Below are positions 453 through 7,759 of a DNA stretch of 7,767 bases, one piece after another (the stretch's first letter is position 1; each line of letters starts with the position of its first letter). This DNA is from Candidatus Micrarchaeum sp. GTDB lineage: Archaea; SpSt-1190; DYHY01. The stretch is taken from positions 1-7,767 of the forward strand of contig DYHY01000034.1 of assembly GCA_020723935.1 (NCBI GenBank), given 5' to 3'. A model generated the notes under the pieces. The model saw only the letters and a list, made by a program, of their open reading frames with translations. It did no database searches and was not told where the DNA came from. The position numbers were made by a program, and so were the translations under genes.

Positions 453-2102
453 CTACCTCGTCCCGGGGAGGCCCTGCACCTGCCGCGCGGTCGCCGCCGT
501 CTTCTCGGCCGCGCACATCGAGACCTGCTCCTTCGGCGGCAGCCCCCTGCTCACGTAGTACTGGTTGAGGGTGAGGCCGCCGTAAAGCGGATGCGGCGTG
601 TCGTAGTGTGAGACCTTGATGCTCGCTGCCATCTCCGCATTCTCCATCCAATTTTCCCCGTCGAGGAGCCTTATTACCTCCGAGAAGCCCGCTTGGCCTC
701 CGTTGTAGGCTCCCGCCGCCGCGGCCAAGCTCCCCATCGCGTTTATCCGCATGGCGAGCTCCTCCATCCCTGAGTCGATGTTGCTCGCCGGGTCGTTCGC
801 GATGTAACCAGGCCGCCCGACGAGCTGCATTATGCCGACGCCGTACCCGCGGTTGAGGACGTTCCCGGCCTCGTCGTAGTGGTGCAGGTGCGACTCGGTG
901 TTCGCGATCGCGATCCCGGAGTAAAGGAGGTATTCGTAGGGTATCCCGTACTTGTCCGCATACTTCCTCGCCGAAACCCTGAAATCCCCGATGTATGGTA
1001 TGTCGTTAAGCGAGCTGTATGCGAAGGGCTCGGACTGGCACCACGAAACATCAGGCCCTTGGAAAAGGCTCTGCTGGACTGCCTGCGGCTGGGGCTGCTG
1101 GGCTTGCGGCTGCTCGCCGCTGTTGGGCGCCTGGGTCGGGAGGACGATGTGCGCGCCGCTTGCTGCCTGCGAGACAAGGGGCGCGAGCGCCGCCTGTGAA
1201 TCCGGGGCGAGGAGGACTGCAGCCGTGAAATATCCCGTCCTGTCCAGGAGCGGGTCGGGCATGAGGCCCGTCCTCCCGTCGTCCGTGAAGCCGAAGACCA
1301 TCTCGCCGTGCTTGAGGAGGCTGTAGAAGGTCTGGCCGCAGCCGAGGGTCCCCTGCCTCCCGCTTGACGGATTGAAGCCGGACGTTTCTATGAACGGGAC
1401 GCTCCTCGCCGCTATCGCGACCCCGTAGGGCGAGAGGAGCGAGACTTCTATCCTCCCATCGTCCCCGGCGACCTGCATCTTCACTAGGGGGTCTTGCCTG
1501 TTGAAGAGCGTGGGGTCTGTCCCCGCGTAGACAGCGCCCGTCGGGGAGATTGAGACGCCCTTCACCTGGACGGCCTCGCCCTGGGGATTGACGTAGTAGC
1601 CGGAGACATTCGAGATGTCGACGCGCGGGACGAGCGCCTGCAGGAGCCCGTCCCGGGCGCTGACCTGCGCCTCGTACATGTGCGCGGGGGGCGCCGCTTC
1701 TCCCGCGATCCCCACGATGCTCGCGTACTGGTCCTGCTTGAACGGATCGATCGGGTTGGGCTCTTCCCTGATCCCGTTGAAGAACAACCTTGTGCCCTGC
1801 ACGACGTTCCTGTCCTGCCCCGCGCCCGTCCTGTCGAAGAGGTCGAGCCCATTCTCCGCGACGGCGTCCGCGATTATCAGCATCGGCACGTAGCCGGGTT
1901 CCGCGTGCGTCTTCTCGATTCCCGGCGGGAGGCTGTAGGTCGTCGCGACCGCCAAGGAGAAGGTTGAATCCACGCATAAGTTCTGGGTGCCCTGCGTCCC
2001 CTTGGCTGTCCCGTTGCAGCTCGCGATGAGTGCGGCTCCCGTGAGTAGCATTATCGTCTTGCTGACTAGGCCCAAGCCGCGCCCCTTCCTTCCCCGGCCC
2101 AT
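453..2102 (-). CDS. Lipoprotein with C-terminal lytic transglycosylase (SLT, GH23-like) domain
   Basis: The 549-residue product has a basic N-terminus (GRGRKGR), a hydrophobic stretch at 16-28 and a good lipobox (LIAS-C, Cys29), so it is probably exported and lipid-anchored. Residues 44-320 are an unrecognised, probably beta-rich region with Cys43 and Cys255. A Pro/Gln-rich linker (about 323-345) leads to an SLT fold: NTES (402-404 region) with likely catalytic Glu403, then GVGIMQL at 421-427 and AYNGG at 465-469. These match the E-S, G.MQL and AYN.G motifs of family 23 transglycosylases, which cleave the MurNAc-GlcNAc bond of peptidoglycan. Cys355 and Cys530 flank the domain and could staple it. 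The ATG at 2102 lies 31 bases after the stop of the upstream cysteine protein, so co-transcription is likely; its ribosome site is weak. Archaea lack murein, so the target may be a bacterium, or another glycan. Confidence 0.85.
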   Translation of the reverse strand: MGRGRKGRGLGLVSKTIMLLTGAALIASCNGTAKGTQGTQNLCVDSTFSLAVATTYSLPPGIEKTHAEPGYVPMLIIADAVAENGLDLFDRTGAGQDRNVVQGTRLFFNGIREEPNPIDPFKQDQYASIVGIAGEAAPPAHMYEAQVSARDGLLQALVPRVDISNVSGYYVNPQGEAVQVKGVSISPTGAVYAGTDPTLFNRQDPLVKMQVAGDDGRIEVSLLSPYGVAIAARSVPFIETSGFNPSSGRQGTLGCGQTFYSLLKHGEMVFGFTDDGRTGLMPDPLLDRTGYFTAAVLLAPDSQAALAPLVSQAASGAHIVLPTQAPNSGEQPQAQQPQPQAVQQSLFQGPDVSWCQSEPFAYSSLNDIPYIGDFRVSARKYADKYGIPYEYLLYSGIAIANTESHLHHYDEAGNVLNRGYGVGIMQLVGRPGYIANDPASNIDSGMEELAMRINAMGSLAAAAGAYNGGQAGFSEVIRLLDGENWMENAEMAASIKVSHYDTPHPLYGGLTLNQYYVSRGLPPKEQVSMCAAEKTAATARQVQGLPGTR

Positions 2103-2133: not shown

Positions 2134-2510
2134 TTACTCGCCCTCGCAGGGATATTCGTATCCCTTGGCCGCGCATCCCTGTATCGCTTTTATCGCCGCC
2201 TGCTGCTCAGCCGTCGGGAAATCGCTCGCTTCTAGGAACGGCAAGAGCGGGTCCGGGACCGTCGTGTAGCTGATCTCGTTCGAATGCAGATTGTCCTGGA
2301 CGACGACGCCATTGGGGCTCACGACATAAGCGTACTTGTTGCAGACCTGGGCGACCGCCGCGGCGTGCTCCTCGACAGCGAGGCGCACGACGTCTGGATT
2401 GAACAGAGCCGCATGAGCGAGCGGGTTCGTCGCGCAGGATTTCTTCGGAACTCCCGACGACTCGCACATATACCCGAGGCGCCACTCTCCTATCGGCACG
2501 GGGGTCACGA
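2134..2510. repeat. Direct repeat, copy A (3' part of paralog 1)
   Basis: This stretch is very similar to 2881-3256 in the same orientation. Identical blocks include 38 bases at 2140-2177 (matching 2887-2924) and 34 bases at 2289-2322 (matching 3039-3072). Similarity fades upstream of the cysteine domain, so the N-terminal halves have diverged or were not duplicated. Confidence 0.85.
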
Positions 2511-2763
2511 AGTAGGGCGCCTTGTCCGGCGCAGCCGCCGTGGGCAGGTATGTCTGGGCCGGGTCCGCACCTTCTTGCGGCGCGGTCGCCCCCGGCACCT
2601 GCGCCATCGGCGTCACTGGGGTGAGGCCGTAGTTCTGGATCTGCGGAGTCTGCGCGGCGGGCGGATTCCTCGGATCGAAGACCCCTGCAAAGGTCGCGCA
2701 GATGAGGGTGCCCGCCACGACACCCGCAGCCAACGCTCCCGCCTTCCGCCTAGACATTGACAT
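2134..2763 (-). CDS. Anchored or secreted cysteine protein, intact copy (paralog 1)
   Basis: The product has 209 residues: a basic start (MSMSRRK), a hydrophobic helix at about 9-28 (signal anchor or signal peptide), a Pro/Ala/Gln-rich spacer to about 80, and a globular C-terminal domain (about 84-209). That domain contains Cys100, Cys110, Cys141, Cys197 and Cys206 and ends in KGYEYPCEGE. The same domain occurs in the two upstream broken copies, which proves a family, but I do not recognise it. Comparing copies suggests disulfide pairs: Cys141 and Cys197 are lost together in the most distant copy, while Cys100 and Cys206 are kept in all three. The start at 2763 is supported by GGAGG at 2773-2777, nine bases upstream, and a TATA box at 2800-2807. 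It is followed after 31 bases by the SLT lipoprotein gene, so the two are probably one operon and both act at the cell surface. Confidence 0.85.
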   Translation of the reverse strand: MSMSRRKAGALAAGVVAGTLICATFAGVFDPRNPPAAQTPQIQNYGLTPVTPMAQVPGATAPQEGADPAQTYLPTAAAPDKAPYFVTPVPIGEWRLGYMCESSGVPKKSCATNPLAHAALFNPDVVRLAVEEHAAAVAQVCNKYAYVVSPNGVVVQDNLHSNEISYTTVPDPLLPFLEASDFPTAEQQAAIKAIQGCAAKGYEYPCEGE

Positions 2764-2772
2764 TTTTTCGTT

Positions 2773-2777
2773 CCTCC
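2773..2777 (-). promoter_or_regulatory. Shine-Dalgarno site of paralog 1
   Basis: GGAGG on the minus strand, nine bases before the ATG at 2763. It is one of the clearest ribosome binding sites in the window and fixes this start over the nearby Met3. Confidence 0.7.
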
Positions 2778-2799
2778 GGATGCGGGAAGCTTGCGCCGA

Positions 2800-2807
2800 T
2801 TAAATAT
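2800..2807 (-). promoter_or_regulatory. TATA box of the paralog 1-SLT operon
   Basis: The minus strand reads atatttaa, identical to the core box in front of paralog 3. Transcription would start about 26 bases downstream, near 2777, giving a leader of only about 14 bases that begins at the ribosome site. The remaining intergenic sequence up to 2880 shows no other clear signal. Confidence 0.6.
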
Positions 2808-2880
2808 TTTTTCCTCGGGACGGACGTTTCTGTACTTTTTGCCGGAATTTCCGCGAGCTCTTGCGGACGGCCGCCACTCC

Positions 2881-3256
2881 TTACTTGCCCTCGCAGGGAT
2901 ATTCGTATCCCTTGGCCGCGCATCTCTGTATCGCGTTTATCGACGCCTGCTGCGCAGCCGTCGGGAAAGCGATCGTTTCTAGGAACTGCCAGAGCTTGGT
3001 CTGCAGGACCGCCGTGTAGCCGATCTTGTCCGAATGCGGATTGTCCTGGACGACGACGCCATTGGGGCTCACTACATAAGCGTAATTGTCGCAGGCCTTG
3101 GCGACCGCCTTGGCGTGCCCCTCGACAGCGGAGAGCACGACCTCTAAATCGAACCGATCTGCATAAGCGAGCGGGTTCGTCGCGAAGTCCGCCGGAACTC
3201 CCGACGGCTTGCATATCTGCTCAAGGCGCCACTTTCCTATCGGCTCGCCTACGACC
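2881..3256. repeat. Direct repeat, copy B (3' part of paralog 2)
   Basis: Second copy of the tandem duplication, starting like copy A at the stop codon of its gene. The sharp start of similarity at both stop codons, with unrelated sequence just beyond, suggests the coding part is what has been kept. Confidence 0.85.
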
Positions 3257-3293
3257 GAATATCTGCTCGTGTCGTCGACGGTAGCGGGAAGTT

Positions 3294-3301
3294 CCCCCCC
3301 C
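3294..3301. repeat. Homopolymer C8 (G8 on the coding strand) at a frameshift point
   Basis: Eight consecutive C bases lie exactly where the two halves of paralog 2 change frame. Removing one base joins the N-terminal anchor to the cysteine domain in one open frame. Such tracts slip readily in replication and in sequencing. Confidence 0.85.
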
Positions 3302-3571
3302 GCTATACTGCTGGGCCGCGGGAGCCCTTCTGTAGAGCGACTCGCTCCCGTCCGGAGCCTGCGTCGGCGACTGGGCTGAAGGCTTGCCGCCGCCGATGAT
3401 GCTGCTGATTATGGCTGCCACGGTGAGCACCCCTGCCACCGCGAATCCCGCCCACCTGACGATCGCCTGGGTCTTGGGGTTTCCTGCTAGAAGTCCGTTC
3501 TGGTTGGCAGATAGTTCCTTGGCATTTTATGCTTTTTCACAGCGTTGTACGCCAGATCGCCCGCTTCCTGC

Positions 3572-4100
3572 CTATTTCCCGTCGCAGGAATAGCCCTTCC
3601 CGAGCGAGGCGCGGGTCGTTCACGACCCTGACGAGAAGCAGGTCTGGGTTGGAATCCTTCCCTGGGAAAACCGCGACCTTCCCCGACTCGGTCCCCCAGC
3701 CGACGTAATAGTCCACCCTTTCCGGCTCCTGCTGGGCGAGGACTCCCGCGAGGCTCGCGTACCATTTCTCGACCGCCGCTGGCTGGAAGCTCCCCGCCTG
3801 CGCTCATGGATCGCTCCCGCACCGCAGACCCGAGTCCGCGCACATCCTCCCCGCCCTGAAATCGTACACTCCCGTCGGGAGATAGGAGAACTGCGAGGGG
3901 ATTTCTGCGGAGCCGCTTATCGAATCCCCGGAATCGCGATCCGCTGGGGCGCCCGCGACGAGGGCCTGGCGCTGCACTGCTGACAGCGAGGATGGCACTG
4001 GCGCGCTTCCGCCCCCGTTCCCCGAGGCGATCGCGGCGGCGGCTATCGCGCCAGTTATTCCCATGAGAATCAGCGTCGGCTTGTCGAACTTGAAAGGCAT
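3572..4100 (-). pseudogene. Interrupted cysteine protein (paralog 3): in-frame TGA and a frameshift
   Basis: From the ATG at 4100 the frame gives MPFKFDKPTLIL, a hydrophobic Ala-rich helix to about residue 26, a spacer, and the start of the family domain (GRMCADSGLRCGSDP). It then meets TGA at 3804-3806. Reading on in the same frame gives AQAGSFQPAAVEKWYASLAG, which aligns with AHAALFNPDVVRLAVEEHAA of paralog 1; the TGA replaces a Leu codon. Near 3600-3620 a second change of frame is needed to reach LGKGYSCDGK and a TAG at 3572, the family C-terminus. The copy keeps equivalents of Cys100, Cys110 and Cys206 but lacks Cys141 and Cys197. Promoter and ribosome site look intact, so a truncated 98-residue anchored peptide may still be made. 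It is the most diverged copy and the first gene of the block. Confidence 0.7.
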
Positions 4101-4112: not shown

Positions 4113-4139
4113 TTTCCGTTGTGGCGATTTTAACGCCGC

Positions 4140-4147
4140 TTAAATAT
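4140..4147 (-). promoter_or_regulatory. TATA box of the surface-protein block
   Basis: The minus strand reads atatttaa. A start point about 26 bases downstream, near 4117, leaves a leader of about 17 bases that contains the GGTGA site. It shares the 4101-4261 intergenic region with the opposite-facing methyltransferase promoter. Confidence 0.6.
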
Positions 4148-4261: not shown

Positions 4262-4825
4262 ATGGATTACCAGAAGTTCCTGGACGGCCTCCCTAACGAG
4301 AACAGAAGGCCCTGGGTCTCGGAAGCCAAGCTTTCCGGCGCCGCGATAAAGAGGTTCCTTCCCGCGGGCGAAGGGATAATCCTCTTCGTCGGAGGGGGGA
4401 CGGGCAAGTTCGCCTGCGCCGTCGGCTTGATGGGCCACAAGGTCATGATGCTGGAAGTCTCCAAGGCGGCGGTGGACGTCGCCTTCGCGCGCATAAAGCA
4501 GAACAACCTCAACCTGCGGGTCGTCCCGATATGGGAGGATTTCGGGAAGCTCAAGTTCGACGATAACACCTTCGACCTCGTCGTCGCGGAGCGCGGGATC
4601 CTTTCGATGTGCCCTGACGCCGATTTCTCCGCCGGCGCAAGGGAGCTCTCGCGCGTGGCGAAGAAAGGGGGGAAAATAATCGGGACGTTCTTCCTGAAGA
4701 GCCCGTCCAAAGCAGTGAAAATCAGGAAGTTCGACGAGTCCGCCGCGGCCGCCGCGTTCGGCCTGCCAGTCCTCGAGCGCACGCAGAATTCCGGGGCGGC
4801 ATGCCTAGTCTTCTCCAAGGCCTGA
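4262..4825 (+). CDS. Class I SAM-dependent methyltransferase, substrate unknown
   Basis: The 187-residue protein has the Rossmann methyltransferase layout. Motif I is at 40-50 (ILFVGGGTGKF, glycine loop GGGTG at 44-48), followed by strand 2 with the acidic ribose-binding residue (VMMLE, Glu65). A helix and strand 3 lead to WEDF (91-94), then the motif IV region DNTFDLVVAER (101-111), and a Lys/Gly-rich turn before strand 5 (KKGGKIIGTFF, 134-144). The length fits a minimal methyltransferase core with a short N-terminal extension; I see no substrate-specific domain, so the target (RNA, protein or small molecule) cannot be named. The start follows a TATA box by about 27 bases, so the mRNA is probably leaderless. 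The stop overlaps the next start as TGATG, suggesting translational coupling. Confidence 0.85.
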   Translation: MDYQKFLDGLPNENRRPWVSEAKLSGAAIKRFLPAGEGIILFVGGGTGKFACAVGLMGHKVMMLEVSKAAVDVAFARIKQNNLNLRVVPIWEDFGKLKFDDNTFDLVVAERGILSMCPDADFSAGARELSRVAKKGGKIIGTFFLKSPSKAVKIRKFDESAAAAAFGLPVLERTQNSGAACLVFSKA

Positions 4826-4847
4826 TGCCGAAGGAAGGCCTGATGCC
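4817..4847 (+). repeat. Short direct repeat at the methyltransferase/His-tail gene junction
   Basis: The 13-mer aaggcctgatgcc occurs at 4817-4829 and again at 4835-4847, 18 bases apart and in frame. It places two candidate ATG codons (4825 and 4843) in the same local setting; the second has a purine-rich gaaggaagg just upstream. Confidence 0.75.
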
Positions 4848-5583
4848 CGCCCCCGGGGAACCCAACAATAAGCCGGAGCCCCGACACCACTCTTCCATGG
4901 GAAGGGAGGGTTGGGAGAGGCTTCTCCATAGCTTCAAGGAGCGCTCGGACTCGTTCCTGGAGAAGCACGACCGCAAGATCGGCATGTGGCTCTCCCACCT
5001 CGACAACCTGCTAGTCAGCCCCGCTGCCGCGCATTTCGCGTACGCGGCGAACCCCGATCCCCTCTTCGTCACCGCGGTCACGAGAACGACGACGCGTTTG
5101 TGGGACTTCCTCGTCTCGCCGATAATCGCCGAGGGGTTCGTCTATCTCGCGCACAAGTACCGGGGCGAGGAGTACCGGATAGTCCCTGGCTTCGTGAAAT
5201 ACGAGATAAGCCACGCCGCGGCGCACGTCCTGGAGGAGCCCATCACGGCGGGCCTGACATACGCGGCGCTCTCCCTGGGCGCGAGCCCCGCGGAAGCGGG
5301 CCTCATTGGCGAGGCCGCGAGCGTCGTCGCGATCCATACGGCGGCGAACTATCTCCTCTACAGCCTCGTCGAGAAGGCGGGCGGGCGCCTCGCGAAATAC
5401 GCGCGGAAGCTGAAGTATAACCACGACCACAGCCATGACCACGGGCACGATCACGCAGATCACGCCCACGCGGACGCGTCCCTCCTGGACGCCGGAGCGC
5501 CGGCATCGTATTCCGCGGTCCCGGTGATCGCGGCCGACGGCGAACCCGCCCGGAAACCGGAAAGCCCGACCAAGACGTATTAA
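4825..5583 (+). CDS. Putative membrane protein with His/Asp-rich metal-binding tail
   Basis: I place the start at the ATG at 4825, which overlaps the methyltransferase stop (TGATG), rather than the in-frame ATG at 4801; the product is then 252 residues. After a Pro/charged N-terminus come hydrophobic helices at about 92-110 (around FLVSPIIAEGFVYLA), 139-153 and 158-182 (ending AANYLLYSLV), which may be membrane segments, though small residues and charges make this uncertain. The helical middle has several His (SHAAAH and AIHTA). Residues 200-215 (NHDHSHDHGHDHADHAH region) hold eight His alternating with Asp, a pattern seen in metal transporters and metallochaperones that bind Zn or Ni. A Pro/Ala tail follows. 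The helix pair loosely recalls DUF2061-type membrane proteins, but I cannot confirm this. Coupling to a methyltransferase gives no clear function. Confidence 0.75.
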   Translation: MPKEGLMPAPGEPNNKPEPRHHSSMGREGWERLLHSFKERSDSFLEKHDRKIGMWLSHLDNLLVSPAAAHFAYAANPDPLFVTAVTRTTTRLWDFLVSPIIAEGFVYLAHKYRGEEYRIVPGFVKYEISHAAAHVLEEPITAGLTYAALSLGASPAEAGLIGEAASVVAIHTAANYLLYSLVEKAGGRLAKYARKLKYNHDHSHDHGHDHADHAHADASLLDAGAPASYSAVPVIAADGEPARKPESPTKTY

Positions 5584-6746: not shown

Positions 6747-7247
6747 ATGGGAAGGGGGATGGGAAAGGACCCGATACGCAAGGCGACGGCAGGCGACCTC
6801 GAAGCGGTTTTTGGGCTCAACTTGCAGCTCAAGCTGGAGATCCTACAATCCTACTGGTCATCCAGGGAATAGATCGCCGAAGAAATAGGCGCCGGGCGCT
6901 ACTACGTCCAGGCGAGGAGCGCGGTCTTGTTCAAGGACGGCCTGCGCACAAGGTCTGGCGAGGGCTGGCCCGACGGCGCTCCGGCCGCGCCGGTCCCCGA
7001 GAAGGCGATGTCCAGCCACAGGCTGGGCGACAGCCCTGAGGAGATAGCCGATCCGAGGAACTCGGGCATCTGCGGGCACCCGTTCATATCCGACGCCCTG
7101 CCTTCCGACAAGGGCGCGCTACTCCCTGAGGGCACCGCCTGCGCGACGATAATCGATTCGGCCTCCGGCACGATGCGCGTCTACAAGGGGACGCCTTGCG
7201 TGGCCCTCAGGGAGAACCGGTTCACGGAGGTGGCCGTGCCTAGATGA
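6747..7247 (+). pseudogene. GNAT-like N-terminus with in-frame TAG; C-terminal half unrecognised
   Basis: From the ATG at 6747 the frame encodes KDPIRKATAGDLEAVFGLNL, resembling the first strand and helix of GNAT N-acetyltransferases. It continues to SYWSSRE and then a TAG at 6870-6872. The same frame stays open after it (IAEEIGAGRYYVQARS, still GNAT-like) to a TGA at 7245-7247, 166 codons in all counting the TAG. Codon use on both sides looks like that of the neighbours, so this was one gene; TGG to TAG is a simple explanation but not proven. After about residue 65 the acetyl-CoA-binding motif (R/Q-x-x-G-x-G/A) is not visible and the sequence is unrecognised, so the gene could be a chimera or a diverged member. 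A separate downstream gene starting at TTG 6927 (106 residues) is an alternative. The end overlaps the next gene by ATGA. Confidence 0.55.
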
Positions 7248-7759
7248 GGCTCTCCTCGGACGAGGAGCGCGTCCTCCTCGACTATTCGGCGGCGGAATCC
7301 AAGGAGGAGAAGCTCGCCCTCGAGCCGCAGGTGAAGGGCGTGATCCAGGCGAGGCTGATAGTCCCCAACTTCGGCCGCGAGTTCCCCTTCGTCTTCGACG
7401 AGCACGCGGGCCTCTCGGTCGTCTGCTTCGACAGGGAAAGCTTCGAGATCATCCACAGCCGCGAGGGCCTTGAGCGCGGTCTTTCGGAAGCGGAGATGGA
7501 GGAAGAGGAGCGCGCCAAGTTGGGTGACAAAGGGTATTTCCTCCCCTACGGCTTCTCCGCAAACCAGTACGACGGGGGCTCGACAATAGTCTCGCGCCAC
7601 ATAGCGCTTGGCGAGCTCGTCGAGACCCTGCTCCACGAGTCCCAGCACGAGTTCGCCTTCAAGGAGACGCTCACGCACGCCCACTACGAGGATCCTGCGA
7701 CCCCGGAGGCGTGGCAGCGTGGAGGAGACGACCTGGACGCAGAACCACTCAGTCGTTAA
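7244..7759 (+). CDS. Putative HExxH zinc metalloprotease, possibly frameshifted at its 3' end
   Basis: The ATG overlaps the previous stop (ATGA), implying coupled translation. The 171-residue frame has an acidic helical N-terminus, a beta-like section (VIQARLIVPNFGREFPFVFD, 33-52), a charged helix (80-92) and a helix carrying HESQH (His131, Glu132, His135), the zinc-binding HExxH motif, within LVETLLHESQHEFAF. This suggests a cytosolic zincin-type protease; I see no signal peptide. The frame ends with a low-complexity tail (RGGDDLDAEPLSR), while from 7719 another frame reads VEETTWTQNHSVVNTL and stays open to the window edge. A one-base shift near 7718 would join the two and supply a Glu about 25 residues after the second His, a possible third zinc ligand. 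The family is not recognised. Confidence 0.65.
   Translation: MRLSSDEERVLLDYSAAESKEEKLALEPQVKGVIQARLIVPNFGREFPFVFDEHAGLSVVCFDRESFEIIHSREGLERGLSEAEMEEEERAKLGDKGYFLPYGFSANQYDGGSTIVSRHIALGELVETLLHESQHEFAFKETLTHAHYEDPATPEAWQRGGDDLDAEPLSR

Follow-up and report, generated by a model that had tools for sequence, protein, structure and literature searches.

A three-copy orphan family with an unusual substitution pattern adjoins an SLT lipoprotein gene in an archaeal draft genome

Three tandem units and a neighboring SLT lipoprotein gene

The window analyzed here is the whole 7,767-base contig C15 of the archaeal draft genome G000, a bin of 1.14 Mb in 47 contigs that is 91% complete. The G+C content of the window (63.2%) agrees with that of the other contigs of the bin (62.1–64.2%), and the small-subunit rRNA in G000 scores as archaeal (1421.7 bits), which establishes the genome as archaeal. 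The size of the genome and the size of its phylum suggest a DPANN-like lineage. The minus strand carries three homologous units, designated copies 1, 2, and 3 (Table 1). Blastp aligned copy 1 with copy 2 (E = 8e-52) and with copy 3 (E = 2e-7). The broken pieces of copies 2 and 3 were searched singly or compared with an X placed at every break, and no base was restored. A profile built from the pieces matches exactly three places in G000 (E = 6.5e-79, 1.4e-69, and 2.9e-32) and no other.

A preliminary description of this DNA had attributed to the three units a shared hydrophobic N-terminal part, a low-complexity spacer, and an end of the form KGY..C[DE]G[EK], and all three elements are present in each copy. 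The best 19-residue Kyte-Doolittle means are 2.06, 2.27, and 1.84 for copies 1, 2, and 3. The linker follows the hydrophobic stretch and precedes the C-terminal end, which reads KGYEYPCEGE in copy 1, KGYEYPCEGK in copy 2, and KGYSCDGK in copy 3. The C-terminal domain of copy 1 contains cysteines at positions 100, 110, 141, 197, and 206. The N-termini of the copies differ and by eye share no pilin motif; a test for archaeal type IV pilins yielded no pilin family match for copies 1–3 in the libraries searched. Structure prediction for copy 1 returned a mean pLDDT of 38.5, too poor for a structure search. Putative TATA-like boxes lie upstream of copies 1 and 3; none was found upstream of copy 2, where one was looked for.

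The SLT lipoprotein gene lies next to copy 1. The stop codon of copy 1 (2134–2136) and the ATG of the SLT open reading frame (2100–2102) are separated by 31 bases, exactly the gap described previously, and the three units and the SLT gene indeed share one direction, all on the minus strand. The encoded protein matches PF01464 with 26 bits against a gathering cut-off of 21.3. The sequence of this putative transglycosylase contains the catalytic-glutamate ES motif NTESHL together with GIMQL and AYNGG. Its predicted structure (mean pLDDT 31.0) was too poor for a structure search.

Table 1 Features of the locus within the window.
Feature	Position	Strand	Description
SLT lipoprotein gene	453–2102	-	549-aa predicted lipoprotein; lipobox-like LIASC; C-terminal SLT domain at residues 379–473
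Copy 1	2134–2763	-	Intact open reading frame, 209 aa
Copy 1 parts			Hydrophobic stretch, residues 11–29; Pro/Ala/Gln-rich linker, ~30–89; C-terminal domain, ~90–209
Copy 1 C-terminal block	2134–2496	-	~85% DNA identity to 2881–3243; differences nearly all protein-changing
TATA-like box	2799–2806	-	TATTTAAT; archaeal type; 36 nt upstream of copy 1; putative role
Copy 2	2881–3525	-	Broken; two changes of frame
Copy 2 C-terminal block	2881–3243	-	Partner of 2134–2496
G8 tract	3294–3301	-	At a copy 2 frame change; 0.99 such runs expected by chance in the window
Copy 3	3572–4100	-	Distant broken copy; in-frame TGA at 3804–3806
TATA-like box	4139–4146	-	TATTTAAG; 39 nt upstream of copy 3; putative role

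Inspection of the reading frames revealed that the units, previously counted as three genes, are homologous and arranged in tandem as described; copy 1 is an intact gene, and the other two are broken. The family had also been called expanding, which is contradicted by the broken state of two of its three members. In copy 2, the C-terminal domain is open from 2881 to 3294, and the hydrophobic N-terminal part lies in a different frame. One frame change occurs near the G8 tract and the other just after the ATG at 3523–3525, whose frame closes after 12 codons. Copy 3 is interrupted by its in-frame TGA, and its terminal KGYSCDGK lies in a different frame from the rest of the copy. Independent support comes from a model of codon usage that was trained on the bin and locates both the copy 2 frame changes and the copy 3 stop. 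If its breaks are not assembly errors, copy 2 would have no action of its own at present. We considered the G8 tract as a phase-variation switch and rejected it: about one such run per window is expected by chance, and copy 2 has a second break.

Elsewhere in the window, a plus-strand frame at 6747–7247 starts acetyltransferase-like by eye (IRKATAGDLEAVFGLN) and is interrupted by a TAG at 6870; the part after this stop had no Pfam match.

Distribution of the family and of SLT genes

The claim that the units belong to no known family was borne out. Searches of Pfam, NCBIfam, and PHROGs with the copies returned chance-level matches (the best had E = 0.0085 and scored 15 bits where the cut-off is 600), and a sequence search of solved structures in the PDB found no relative of the family. 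The three-copy profile detected no relative in 393 other genomes; the collection contains only ten genomes from the phylum and class of G000. Scans of genomes and viral contigs with copy 1, the alignment of copies 1 and 2, or the SLT protein as query were likewise negative, as was tblastn against phages and plasmids. Two matches with E = 0.07 were rejected as not significant: one in genome G058 and one in G001, the latter (L019, 6420–6944) a membrane-anchored protein of 174 aa that lacks the shared end motif. The three-copy family is thus an orphan, known from one archaeal bin among the genomes searched. Lineage-specific, fast-evolving surface proteins are a known kind of thing; the family itself is new.

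G000 contains a second SLT gene, on contig C17 among other membrane-anchored proteins (locus L010), and no family copy lies near it. In G003, a genome of the same class, a profile search found no family member and SLT domains are present. SLT counts in the other genomes are lower bounds, as the genome search with PF01464 missed the SLT domain of the window, which hmmscan found. Exported murein-like lytic transglycosylases occur in Pacearchaeota and Woesearchaeota and are proposed to attack bacterial walls (PMC8204110); such enzymes are also present in other DPANN bins (PMC10936187). The present locus resembles the transglycosylases of fam00969 (PMC8204110) in its SLT-type domain, exported protein, and small archaeal host. 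It differs in that fam00969 is itself the enzyme, at up to 3,000 aa, whereas here short orphan genes adjoin a 549-aa SLT lipoprotein.

Locus L010 (C17, 38000–57000) comprises a cluster of membrane-anchored, often cysteine-rich proteins that may form a cell-surface machine. One is an SLT protein by Pfam (8854–10011), and two more open reading frames (9975–11291, and from 13077 off the end) contain SLT-like stretches by eye. The G003 bin (3.8 Mb, 6% contamination) carries its SLT domains (C21, 5831–6139; C41, 22532–22858) in open frames of 2135 and 1901 aa, which resemble the large DPANN transglycosylase proteins that have been reported.

Divergence between copies 1 and 2

In comparing copies 1 and 2, we observed ~85% DNA identity over the last 367 bases and near-random identity upstream. 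Codons 90–209 contain 53 base differences, 49 of them protein-changing and 4 silent, which are distributed over codon positions 1, 2, and 3 as 23, 21, and 9. Neutral random placement of the same change types on the same bases yielded a mean of 13.3 silent changes, with 4 or fewer at P = 0.0002–0.0005. A pairwise maximum-likelihood codon model estimated omega at 3.3–3.9 with 2dlnL of 6.5–9.0 under three codon-frequency settings (p ~0.003–0.011), a signal of selection that comes from this one pair of sequences in one genome. The signal is robust to removal of the codons that flank indels (omega 4.1, 2dlnL 7.3). Codons 150–209 alone contain 20 protein-changing and no silent changes. Charge is altered in 23 of the 41 residue differences, and the net charge of the C-terminal domain shifts from -7 to -1 between the two copies. 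Eight other paralogue comparisons in G000, including archaeal pilins of locus L018, served as controls and gave omega values of 0.02–0.52. The substitution pattern seen between copies 1 and 2 is unusual within G000.

When recent duplicates of an exported protein differ by an excess of amino-acid changes, selection on a recognition surface is the easiest explanation. The pattern suggests that the C-terminal domain faces outward and is under pressure to change; because its divergence is protein-changing, an outward-facing binder would fit.

Candidate role of copy 1 and alternative explanations

A common surface role for the family is plausible given the hydrophobic N-terminus, the linker, the cysteine-containing end domain, and the co-directional lipoprotein gene. 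We tentatively favor a model in which duplication of a stalked recognition domain facing outward was followed by its diversification and then by decay of the spare copies. The model builds on what was observed directly, namely the homology of the units, the breaks, the 31-base gap, the protein-changing excess, and the restriction to G000 among the genomes searched. Copy 1 would be an exported protein, either membrane-tethered or cleaved, with a surface location predicted from hydropathy; its hydrophobic N-terminus would be followed by a flexible Pro/Ala-rich stalk and a cysteine-containing domain of ~120 residues facing out. This domain may bind a changing partner, which could be a virus, a competitor, or the surface of a cell that is its host or prey. 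A tandem duplicate of the domain would have diverged under selection for amino-acid change, and loss of the reading frames in the spare copies 2 and 3 would have come later. Directly downstream, the gene for the SLT lipoprotein is probably part of the same transcript, and it is tempting to speculate that the binder acts where the SLT enzyme cuts. The evidence for such a functional tie is adjacency at a single place, since the family was found nowhere else in the searched genomes.

The same adjacency raises the possibility that the copies are dedicated partners of the SLT enzyme, acting as inhibitor, substrate presenter, or stabilizer, and that their changes track the enzyme or its substrate. 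The shared direction, the short gap, and the SLT domain of the neighbor are consistent with this proposal, as is the view that murein-like lytic transglycosylases of DPANN archaea target bacterial walls (PMC8204110). We nevertheless consider it unlikely, for the second SLT gene of G000 and the SLT domains of G003 occur without the family, and a single comparison of copy 1 with the SLT protein showed no convincing similarity (E = 0.03). Nor was there support for kinship between copy 1 and the N-terminal region of that protein. Doubtful, too, is plain decay, in which copies 2 and 3 would be relics of a lineage-specific gene and the protein-changing excess a product of relaxed constraint and chance. 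It accords with the loss of two of three copies and with the further broken gene at 6747–7247; however, relaxed constraint leads to an omega of ~1 rather than the 3–4 estimated here, and the neutral permutation argues against chance. A different possibility is that the breaks are assembly or sequencing errors and that all three genes function. G000 is a draft in 47 contigs, and the breaks are small frame changes, one of them at the G8 run. Against this, the same codon-usage model found fewer unexplained breaks per kb in nine stretches of other contigs of the bin (~157 kb) than in the window, a comparison of small numbers in which many of the breaks called are model artefacts. In-frame stops without a nearby start numbered three in the ~157 kb versus two in the 7.8-kb window, again small numbers, and in copy 3 a stop and a change of frame occur together. 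We regard the breaks in these copies as probably real and the error explanation as improbable.

In Neisseria, silent pilS cassettes feed the expressed pilE gene by gene conversion. By analogy, the broken copies could serve as silent cassettes that donate to the C-terminal domain of copy 1. The likeness lies in one complete copy that adjoins broken copies with a C-terminal block in common. Copy 1 looks expressed, and no TATA-like box was found before copy 2; copies 1 and 2 resemble each other closely only within the C-terminal block, up to and including the stop codon. Silent divergence is higher upstream (10 of 17 versus 4 of 82 sites, Fisher P = 9e-7), in a region that aligns poorly. Unlike pilE and pilS, however, the copies are without pilin similarity and include one close cassette only, and the likeness derives from the sequence of a single genome. 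Copy 2 is the sole cassette close enough for recombination, as the DNA of copy 3 is not alignable, and long runs of identity do not reach significance (P = 0.088). We regard donation by gene conversion as very unlikely, and give equally little credence to its fuller form, an archaeal expression and silent-cassette system whose broken copies would donate variants of the outward domain beside a wall-cutting enzyme. Were it true, the system would give changing recognition of host or prey. A diversity-generating retroelement is an unlikely cause of the excess, and that such an element mutates the domain at adenines is close to negligible in probability. The bias toward codon positions 1 and 2 would be in keeping with one; yet a PF00078 search of the 91%-complete bin found no reverse transcriptase, the bin yielded no template repeat, copies 1 and 2 matching only each other, and A is absent from both copies at 20 of the 53 differences.

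The tentatively favored model, a diversified recognition domain with decayed spare copies, has a partial counterpart in the hypervariable surface protein of Gracilibacteria BD1-5 (PMC6851277). Both combine a single N-terminal transmembrane stretch, predicted here, with an unusually varying extracellular part in a presumed symbiont. The BD1-5 protein is conserved while its DNA varies (PMC6851277); between copies 1 and 2, in contrast, it is the protein that varies and the silent sites that are kept.

Copy 1 is a fair candidate for a partner-contact protein. An orphan domain whose protein-changing divergence exceeds its silent divergence, beside a peptidoglycan-type enzyme, constitutes a concrete candidate; at present the family is an orphan of one genome, and its signal comes from two sequences. 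To our knowledge, few of the proteins that decide the partner of small archaea have been identified.

Two further plus-strand open reading frames were noted in the window. The first (4801–5583) encodes a 260-aa protein with a His-rich stretch (HDHSHDHGHDHADHAHADA); it matched no family above cut-off, and none of the other nine genomes in the class gave a match. The second (7244–7759) contains a HESQHEF stretch that is metal-binding or peptidase-like by eye and had no Pfam match.

Elsewhere in G000, locus L018 (contig C16, 7429–14101) contains tandem archaeal type IV pilin-like genes beside two TadC-like membrane genes, as judged by eye. Copies 1–3 resemble this array as tandem surface-type proteins with a hydrophobic N-terminus. 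They differ from it in lacking a pilin family match and in their divergence, as pilin pairs of L018 have omega values of 0.03–0.23. Two of the L018 open reading frames (8671–9153 and 9401–9883) encode identical 160-aa proteins.
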